This document shows positions 33,588-58,532 of a DNA stretch of 60,497 nt, in pieces (position 1 is the first letter of the stretch; each line of letters opens with the position of its first letter). Under the pieces are notes generated by a model that searched no databases, was not told the DNA's origin, and saw nothing but the letters and a program-made list of their open reading frames with translations. The position numbers were made by a program, and so were the translations under genes. The DNA comes from Bacteroides sp. (lineage in GTDB: Bacteria; Bacteroidota; Bacteroidia; Bacteroidales; Bacteroidaceae): the NCBI GenBank assembly GCA_015060705.1, contig SUXY01000010.1, positions 1-60,497 of the forward strand, given 5' to 3'.

Positions 33588-33715
33588 TGTCATTCAGAAC
33601 GAAACGCAATGGAGTGAAGGATCTCGATAACATCTACGTTGATTGTATTAATGAATGTCTTCGAGATTTTTGGGACAGAGTTTTCAACAGTTCGTCGTCA
33701 CTAAATTCTGAATGA
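33588..33715 (+). repeat. Dispersed palindromic element, copy 1
   Basis: It starts TGTCATTCAG and ends TTCTGAATGA, with GATCTCGATAACATC and TCGAGATTTTTGGGACAGAG inside. The overall fold is a long hairpin. Related copies are at 34957-35039 and 58384-58532. Confidence 0.75.
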
Positions 33716-33888
33716 AACCTTGTGGCAACAAAGTCATTATTTCCTGTTTACATCACATTAAATATTAGTCAAAAGAAACAAAATCTCAAAAACACCCACC
33801 TCAAACAGCGAAGCGCATTTGAGTCCTTCGGTGGAGGACCGGCCTTTAGTGGAGGAGCGTGAAGAAAATCGGGCGAATTTCCGTGAAG

Positions 33889-33928
33889 AACAAAAAGCTG
33901 TTTGAGCGAAGCGAGTTCTTTTTGTTTA
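33889..33928 (-). repeat. 40-base inverted repeat, right copy
   Basis: Perfect inverted partner of 33420-33459, with 429 bases between them. Confidence 0.9.
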
Positions 33929-34029
33929 GGAAATTCACCCGATTTTTAGCTCCGGAACGGCAGCCGGCGCTTTTTCTTTTTGTTTCGTTTTTCTTTTGTG
34001 CGGACAAAAGAAAAATGAAAAATCCAGTT

Positions 34030-34609: not shown

Positions 34610-36073
34610 ATGCATCATTTTAAGAACAACATACAGAATATTCCTCTTCCGGAACAATTCACCTATCCGTTCCATTATACGCCACATCCACTCTGTGTGA
34701 TGGCCGCTACGGAAGTACAAGCTTATTTACAAAACCGTTCGGAATGGCATACCGAACTCCAACAAGGCAAGATGTTTGGAGTACTGATCGTCCGTCATCC
34801 GGAAGGCACTATCGGTTACTTAGCAGCCTTTTCCGGCAATTTGGCAGGTAGTAACCACCATCATTTCTTTGTACCACCCGTCTATGATTTACTGAATCCA
34901 GATGGATACTTCAAGGAAGAAGAAGCACGTATTTCTGCCATCAATCACCTCCTATCTGTCATTCAGACGACCGAAGGGAGGAAGACTCTCGATAACATCC
35001 ATCCTGTTTCCGAGATCCTTCGCTTTGCTCTGGATGACAAGATTGAAAATGAAGATGAGATACATCGCATCATTGAGCACCTAAAAGAAGAGCGCAAGAA
35101 TCGTTCCATCGCCCTTCAGCAATGGATTTTCCAGCAATTTAAGATGAGAAACGCCTTGGGAGAAGAACAGGACCTTAACGATATTTTTGCCCATTATGCA
35201 CACCGCAATCCGCCTGCCGGAGCTGGCGAATGTGCAGCTCCCAAGCTACTCCAATATGCTTATTTGCACGGATATCAACCTTTAGCCATGGCAGAATTCT
35301 GGTGGGGGAACTCCCCAAAGGGTGAAATTCGACACCACGGACACTACTACCCCTCTTGTCGTCATAAGTGCGAACCCATCTTAGGATTTATGTTGCAAGG
35401 ATTATCCGTTGAACCCAATCCGCTGCTCACTTCCGTCACCGATACCAACTTAGTGACAACCATTTATGAGGACGACCATATCATGGTAGTCAACAAACCG
35501 GCAGGCATGCTCTCCGTACCCGGAAAGACGGGGCAAGCCTCCGTCCTCAGCATCCTGCAAGAACGCTATCCCGATGCCACCGGCCCTTTATTGGTCCATC
35601 GGCTCGACATGGACACCTCCGGTTTATTGTTGGCAGCCAAAGACAAGGACACTCATGCCCAGCTCCAACAACAGTTCGAAAGCCGAAGTGTCAAAAAACG
35701 ATACATTGCTTTGTTGGAGGGTATTCCCCAAGTAGCCCCCAAAGGCTTCATCCGGTTACCCCTCCGCCCCGACTTTGACAACCGTCCGTTGCAGATAGTA
35801 GACGACGAATGGGGCAAACCGGCCGTGACCCGTTACGAAATCCTCGGCAGTACAGATACCCATACCCGAGTAGCCTTCTACCCAGAAACCGGTCGCACAC
35901 ATCAACTGCGAGTACATGCAGCCCATCCCGATGGATTGAATTGTCCCATCGTAGGCGATCCACTTTATGGACAAGCAGCCAACTTCATGCATCTGCATGC
36001 CGAGTCTTTGGAGTTTAGGCATCCACATACATTTCAGAGAATTAAACTAACATCCGAAAATAAAGAAATATAA
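34610..36073 (+). CDS. RluA-family RNA pseudouridine synthase with long N-terminal region
   Basis: This 487-residue enzyme isomerises uridine in RNA. The catalytic motif HRLDMDTSG (about 330-338, catalytic Asp) and the downstream FYPETGRTHQLRVH (about 424-437) and CPIVGDPLYG are typical of RluA. The first 270 residues are an extra domain, seen in a Bacteroidales subgroup, with GSNHHHFFVPP and HGHYYPSCRHKC. Codons about 116-143 are made of a dispersed palindromic repeat (34957-35039) kept in frame. The RNA target cannot be told. Confidence 0.9.
   Translation: MHHFKNNIQNIPLPEQFTYPFHYTPHPLCVMAATEVQAYLQNRSEWHTELQQGKMFGVLIVRHPEGTIGYLAAFSGNLAGSNHHHFFVPPVYDLLNPDGYFKEEEARISAINHLLSVIQTTEGRKTLDNIHPVSEILRFALDDKIENEDEIHRIIEHLKEERKNRSIALQQWIFQQFKMRNALGEEQDLNDIFAHYAHRNPPAGAGECAAPKLLQYAYLHGYQPLAMAEFWWGNSPKGEIRHHGHYYPSCRHKCEPILGFMLQGLSVEPNPLLTSVTDTNLVTTIYEDDHIMVVNKPAGMLSVPGKTGQASVLSILQERYPDATGPLLVHRLDMDTSGLLLAAKDKDTHAQLQQQFESRSVKKRYIALLEGIPQVAPKGFIRLPLRPDFDNRPLQIVDDEWGKPAVTRYEILGSTDTHTRVAFYPETGRTHQLRVHAAHPDGLNCPIVGDPLYGQAANFMHLHAESLEFRHPHTFQRIKLTSENKEI
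34957..35039 (+). repeat. Palindromic element copy 2, inside coding sequence
   Basis: The first 30 bases (TGTCATTCAGACGACCGAAG and on to 34986) match exactly the reverse complement of 58503-58532. CTCGATAACATC is shared with copy 1, and it ends CTGGATGACA. It encodes SVIQTTEGRK to FALDDK in the RluA-like protein. Confidence 0.8.
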
Positions 36074-58383: not shown

Positions 58384-58532
58384 TGTCATTCAGAGCGAAG
58401 CGAAGACGAGTTGTTGAGCCAAAGGCGAAAAATCTCGGAAACATCCACATACCATATTAGTATATGCTACCGAGATTTTTCGGACAGAGTCCTCAACAAC
58501 TCGTCTTCCTCCCTTCGGTCGTCTGAATGACA
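58384..58532 (+). repeat. Dispersed palindromic element, copy 3
   Basis: A 149-base long hairpin: TGTCATTCAGAGCGAAGCGA at the left pairs with the right end TCGTCTGAATGACA; ACGAGTTGTTGAG pairs with CTCAACAACTCGT; AAAATCTCGG pairs with CCGAGATTTT. It lies just after the GH94 stop and may also end its transcript. Confidence 0.85.

Follow-up and report, generated by a model that had tools for sequence, protein, structure and literature searches.

Results

An in-frame palindromic element in a RluA-type gene

The window, that is, the whole stretch of 60,497 nucleotides analysed here (positions 1 to 60,497 of contig SUXY01000010.1, assembly GCA_015060705.1, Bacteroides sp.), carries a gene for a RluA-family pseudouridine synthase that holds an 83-bp palindromic element in frame (Table 1). 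The product of 487 residues matches PF00849 over residues 290-439 (Pfam, E 1.1e-31, 110.5 bits with a cut-off of 26.8), and its best match by sequence to a solved structure is E. coli RluA (2i82_A, residues 283-473, E 1.1e-39); the score obtained with TIGR00005 (176.7) lies under the cut-off of 192.7. The frame stays open straight across the element, which is translated as (S)VIQTTEGRKTLDNIHPVSEILRFALDD(K) (residues 116-144), and tryptic peptides such as TLDNIHPVSEILR fall within this insert. The element is bounded by 11-nt terminal inverted repeats that are 91% complementary and, as RNA, has a predicted folding energy of -33.3 kcal/mol (z -3.99 with respect to 200 dinucleotide shuffles). A further inverted repeat of the window (33865-33946, 18-nt arms, 94% complementary, 46 nt apart) is unlike this family.

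Table 1. Features of the RluA-type gene and of the related element copies in the window.
Feature	Position	Strand	Basis or remark
RluA-family pseudouridine synthase ORF, 487 aa, holding the insert	34610..36073	+	ORF listing, PF00849, structure match
83-bp palindromic element, in frame	34957..35039	+	codon 116 third base to codon 144 first base
Left terminal inverted repeat TGTCATTCAGA	34957..34967	+	repeat finding, DNA search
Right terminal inverted repeat, minus-strand TGTCATCCAGA	35029..35039	-	repeat finding, DNA search
Catalytic PseudoU_synth_2 domain, residues 290-439, downstream of the insert	35477..35926	+	Pfam
Second insertion site of the RluA family, residues ~415-417, without element in the window gene	35852..35860	+	alignment of relatives
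Larger element copy, 149 bp, with extra internal segment, apparently intergenic	58384..58532	.	repeat finding, DNA search
Third window copy, 130 bp, apparently intergenic, right end with one mismatch	33588..33717	.	pattern, DNA search

As judged from the sequence, the insert is placed in the linker that joins the N-terminal part of the enzyme to its catalytic domain. In the AlphaFold model, of moderate confidence (mean pLDDT 69.8; residues 111-150, averaged in blocks, score 77, 61, 51 and 63), the insert is predicted to lie between the helices formed by residues 100-119 and 148-176, and the second site of the family between the strands formed by residues 406-414 and 418-425. In this model both RluA insertion sites are predicted hairpin tips.

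The repeat family in the genome and the genus

The window genome (G000) is a draft of 2.95 Mb in 118 contigs, 88% complete. A strict two-ended pattern, GTCATNCNGAN{45,75}TCNGNATGAC, was found at 61 places in this genome, and the same pattern reversed, used as a control, at none, neither here nor in any of the 61 genus genomes. At least one match to the strict pattern was present in 33 of the 61 genus genomes, single ones (e.g. in G017) being perhaps due to chance, and at least 20 were counted in 10 genomes (G000 61, G021 25, G025 27, G026 41, G029 66, G031 80, G032 35, G035 52, G037 32 and G059 41). A search of the window genome with the 83-mer gave 63 matches, in which many places count once for each strand; scoring covered 40 of 88 candidates, and the best non-self copy among those scored is 88% identical (E 3e-24). 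The closest other copy of the RluA element shares 74 of 84 aligned columns. The repeat likeness of the 83-mer within this genome is far beyond chance.

The elements have the ends TGTCATTC...GAATGACA. The 76 copies examined, picked by their TGTCAT...ATGACA ends, measure 70-130 bp, 61 of them 83-98 bp. A CGTC motif is located inside one arm and not at the end of the element, the ends being fixed by the search pattern. A composite form with an extra internal segment (GACGAGTTGTTGAGGACTCTGTCCGAAAAATCTCGG) occurs at 58384-58532 of the window and at C1:4371 and C53:5878 of the same genome.

The RAYT domain (Y1_Tnp, PF01797) had no match in the window genome, as far as this 88% complete draft extends. 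It is present in six of the 61 genus genomes, four of which have 0-4 pattern places while G026 has 41 and G052 has 13; a RAYT-driven spread is unsupported by this search of G000 and the 61 genus genomes. No target-site duplication was seen by eye in the flanks of the copies or in the filled and empty pair of the receptor gene described below.

Copies located inside genes

The copies of the window genome were scanned for those spanned by an open frame of at least 50 codons on each side, a scan that is blind to gene-breaking copies and to copies near gene ends. Four of the 76 distinct copies were spanned by such a frame, and two of these correspond to real genes, namely the RluA-type gene and a TonB-type receptor gene. 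The other candidates were rejected. Copy L160 (C66:30333-30420) is flanked by the genes for phosphate acetyltransferase and acetate kinase, and the long plus-strand frame there has no Pfam match; copy L233 has a 3-keto-disaccharide hydrolase gene on one side and a GFO/IDH/MocA gene on the other (Pfam). Further long frames (L154, L156, L200 to L204 and L303 to L306) appeared intergenic or antisense by eye. When the 61 genomes were probed with a peptide, long open frames (300 or more) were listed at four places, among which the RluA and receptor genes alone looked real. In-gene cases of the element are few.

Both in-gene copies of the window genome are read in the frame here called xVIQ. Among the other 74 copies taken in both orientations, this frame is stop-free in 48 of the 148 cases, and the other two frames in 23 and 28.

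Empty and otherwise filled linkers in the RluA relatives

The closest insert-free relatives (P0002-P0006, 85-87% identical) have 456-457 residues, 30-31 fewer than the window protein; the empty site of RluA is known as protein, not as DNA. The absence of the segment from these five proteins agrees with the insertion at residues 116-143 that an earlier note had proposed from the DNA alone. The same note had described thirty bases of the in-gene copy as identical to the end of the intergenic element at 58 kb, and this was borne out, as 34957-34986 and the right end of the 149-bp copy (58503-58532, taken as reverse complement) agree at 30 of 30 bases. Its statement that the 83-base copy keeps the frame also held, but its figure of about 28 added codons did not, the net difference being 30-31 codons (487 with respect to 456-457 residues), which indicates that a few bases beside the palindrome changed as well. 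The contrary situation, with all relatives encoding the peptide and no DNA repeat similarity, is not what the relatives show.

The same insert is found in another assembly (L031), whose protein is 97% identical to that of the window. By a simple count, 65 codon differences separate the two genes (51 synonymous and 14 not), none of them within the insert; the frame is thus maintained. The contig of L031 (Goat_Cecum-5 RGIG1828) is filed as a Clostridia bacterium and is probably mis-binned. A near-identical insert is seen in P0001, which represents 97 member sequences in 16 contigs. At E 1e-140, a sample of 301 genomes drawn evenly across the family gave no match besides the window's own.

The DNA of the linker was examined at 37 loci (L031-L037 and L111-L140), 73 further loci lying outside this reading. 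The linker is 110-112 residues long in 24 rows (22 distinct) and short in 10 rows (6 distinct), and three rows were unmatched by the expression used. The short linkers of the window and of L031 hold the 83-bp element. In L032 = L112 (G033; same DNA as RGIG4143) the codon site of this element holds an 86-bp family member with another loop, and in L033 = L113 and L035 = L115 (G029 and G032; same DNA as SIG135 and RGIG1990) it holds a remnant-like short palindrome, which keeps the ends of the family and lacks most of the middle. An unrelated hairpin palindrome, in frame and with a predicted 20-bp stem and 3-nt loop, occupies this codon site in L034 = L114 (G031; same DNA as RGIG1661). It was found in 2 of 309 loci, namely L034 and L114 themselves, with no other copies among these loci, and since only these two loci of the same DNA carry it, this palindrome may be a local inverted duplication.

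The linkers were then compared as proteins with 107 element translations; this set was drawn from the loci analysed, the known RluA and receptor copies being left out, and may include copies that are not intergenic. Element-like linkers, defined as those that beat all 100 of their own shuffles, amount to 45 of 121 sequences (33 of 59 distinct), and none of the 59 passed when base-shuffled elements were used as a control. With element L182, which lies in a RluA gene, included and 30 shuffles per linker, 35 distinct linkers passed, as compared with 33 without it at 100 shuffles. At the second RluA site, near residue 415, at least 7 extra residues are present in 16 of 120 relatives, most of them element-like by eye.

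The same behaviour in a TonB-type receptor

Another in-frame copy of the element is located in a TonB-type receptor gene of the window genome (L205, contig C55), identified through PF14905 and PF13715 in a 99% identical relative (P0121; Pfam). The AlphaFold model of the receptor was set aside as too poor (mean pLDDT 50.2). Here the empty site is available as DNA: the filled gene of G000 and the empty one of G033 are 97-99% identical in the DNA on either side of the site (599 of 617 and 1185 of 1200 bases) and differ by 102 bp for an element of 86 bp, that is, by 16 bp beyond the element, which indicates that flanking bases changed as well. The site is also empty at the DNA level in G032 and G038. 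By the same shuffle test, the receptor site is element-like in 35 of 121 sequences, empty in 79 and otherwise occupied in 7.

In G037 (L248) the receptor site contains an unrelated palindrome of a second type, with CCCCTCTTGAGAGGGG arms and PPTPFKGG- or NPSQEGN-like peptides; of 309 loci, two contain the arm of this type (L248 and L281, both from G037). Three RluA linkers (P0058, P0022 and P0054) resemble this second type (PPTPFKGG-like) by expression on protein alone. A third kind of insert, SSADFADNADF...SSALSADE-like, is seen at the receptor site of P0170, P0173, P0175, P0177, P0229 and P0234; these inserts fail the shuffle test with the element translations and perhaps represent yet another repeat.

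Repeated use of the sites

Trees were built with the insert columns removed; they are quick trees with many weak forks. At least 18 changes of the element label are required on the RluA tree and 13 on the receptor tree, and the strongly supported branches force 7 changes in each (an earlier labelling of RluA gave 15 changes, 5 of them forced). These changes may be gains, losses or exchange from strain to strain, which the counts cannot separate. The small RluA clade of the window protein comprises 7 rows, 5 of them insert-free with linkers all of 19 residues, and the element is confined to the window protein and P0001, for which a single gain would be the simplest account. Taken with the different palindromes found at these places, the sequence comparison suggests that hairpins have arrived repeatedly at the same few positions of two proteins.

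Discussion

Taken as a whole, these data are very probably explained by a multicopy, non-autonomous palindromic element that was inserted in the RluA linker and that survives where the frame and the protein permit. Copies would be spread by some enzyme and would land in many places; within genes, their survival would be limited to places where the most often stop-free frame (xVIQ...) joins the frame of the host and where the protein site tolerates an extra segment, as a hairpin tip may do. The added peptide would most likely be neutral or nearly so, and the inserts would afterwards be shortened or replaced. To account for the data it suffices that copies are retained where their frame is open and the protein position tolerant, a benefit being possible but not needed. 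A more far-reaching view, to which we assign a low probability, is that unrelated palindromes converge on the same codon sites (two in RluA and one in the receptor), the short-linker RluA lineage filling in this way the place of the 110-112-residue segment of other members, and that mobile palindromes would thereby keep supplying new hairpin tips and variants of surface loops, which may be under selection.

The occurrence of different palindromes on one codon site, in RluA and likewise in the receptor, could also arise if the element preferred its sites by DNA, with a hairpin or an older element as target, and not by protein tolerance; some linkers resemble nested or tandem elements (P0099), and similar S/T/P-rich codons often precede the inserts by eye. 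Such a targeted hotspot is nevertheless quite improbable, as the three empty receptor sites known as DNA show by eye neither a palindrome nor a common target motif, and 74 of the 76 copies fail the in-gene scan, so that copies are not confined to sites of this kind. A small number of old insertions that were later lost again and again, with filled and empty alleles passing from strain to strain, would account for the receptor, where filled and empty forms are mixed among very similar proteins and the flanking codons differ, as recombination of the loop region predicts, and the tree counts leave gain and loss indistinguishable. We regard this history as unlikely, given that unrelated palindromes at one site cannot stem from a single insertion and that the insert-free members of the window clade share their 19-residue linker.

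An insert that is useful, either as a coding-region mRNA hairpin tuning expression or as a peptide altering the RluA hinge or the receptor loop, would be consistent with the strong RNA folds of the three full in-gene elements (z -3.99, -4.25 and -6.10); the unrelated palindromes also fold (z -9.72 and -6.80), and the remnant more weakly (-2.50). The element is moreover unchanged in L031 despite the codon differences elsewhere in the gene, but the unchanged stretch that includes it (75 codons, 113-187) is accompanied by another of 57 codons (55-111), which makes this identity weak evidence, and close relatives do without the insert; usefulness is therefore very unlikely in our judgement. The chance that the insert is an assembly chimera or a sequencing artefact is negligible. 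Repeats are able to cause misassembly in a draft of so many contigs, but the insert recurs in the independent assembly of L031 and, near-identical, in P0001, the reading frame is intact and the sequence on both sides aligns with the relatives.

The likeness to the Rickettsia palindromic elements (RPEs) drawn in the earlier note is upheld as regards behaviour, that is, a multicopy palindrome with in-frame inserts and insert-free homologues. In the available parts of two papers, RPEs are palindromic repeats in frame in unrelated genes, with several families per genome (PMC10969869, PMC3733652), and the former gives a size of ~150 bp and 44 integrations in R. conorii genes. The Bacteroides element shares with them the many-copy palindrome and the in-frame presence in two genes, RluA and the TonB-type receptor, that have insert-free homologues, but its copies are mostly of 83-98 bp with TGTCATTC ends and, whereas RPEs are frequently intragenic, only 2 of 76 copies were found within genes in our scan.

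The GTAG and CGTC REPs and the REP-RAYT systems are, according to the sections of PMC3733652 at hand, multicopy palindromes that are mostly intergenic with some in ORFs, as here, in-frame cases being known from several species that bear REPs. The same sections describe different REPs at about the same site in recB of X. campestris and X. oryzae, and CGTC repeats in five phyla, Bacteroidetes being named among them. Those REPs, however, measure 20-40 bp and carry a GTAG or CGTC tag at one of their ends, while the Bacteroides element is longer and its genome yielded no RAYT-type gene. The MITE-like RU elements of enterobacteria are likewise small mobile sequences with open frames within annotated genes, though from other hosts and of 103-168 bp, a comparison made by description (PMC2759123, in its accessible portion). 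With MITEs in general the element shares terminal inverted repeats, a short length and the lack of a gene of its own; those of Porphyromonas gingivalis are treated as intergenic and non-coding in the available text of PMC5771137, unlike the in-gene copies here.

In-frame palindromic repeats are thus known well outside Rickettsia, as far as the portions of PMC3733652 and PMC2759123 seen go, and the kind of event is not new. What is new is the element family, its lineage and the fact that different palindromes have used the same protein sites more than once; in line with the earlier note, which knew of no such case in Bacteroidales, no report of in-frame palindromic elements in this order was seen among the papers listed by our literature search. 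Sequences like VIQTTEGRKNL and VIQSEAKNL in protein databases can arise by translation of a DNA repeat and may mislead homology searches. The finding extends protein-altering palindromic repeats to animal-gut Bacteroidales, where the presence of filled and empty sites in close relatives allows gain, loss and effect to be measured and where the repeated use of sites provides natural replicates for asking whether inserts are tolerated or selected.
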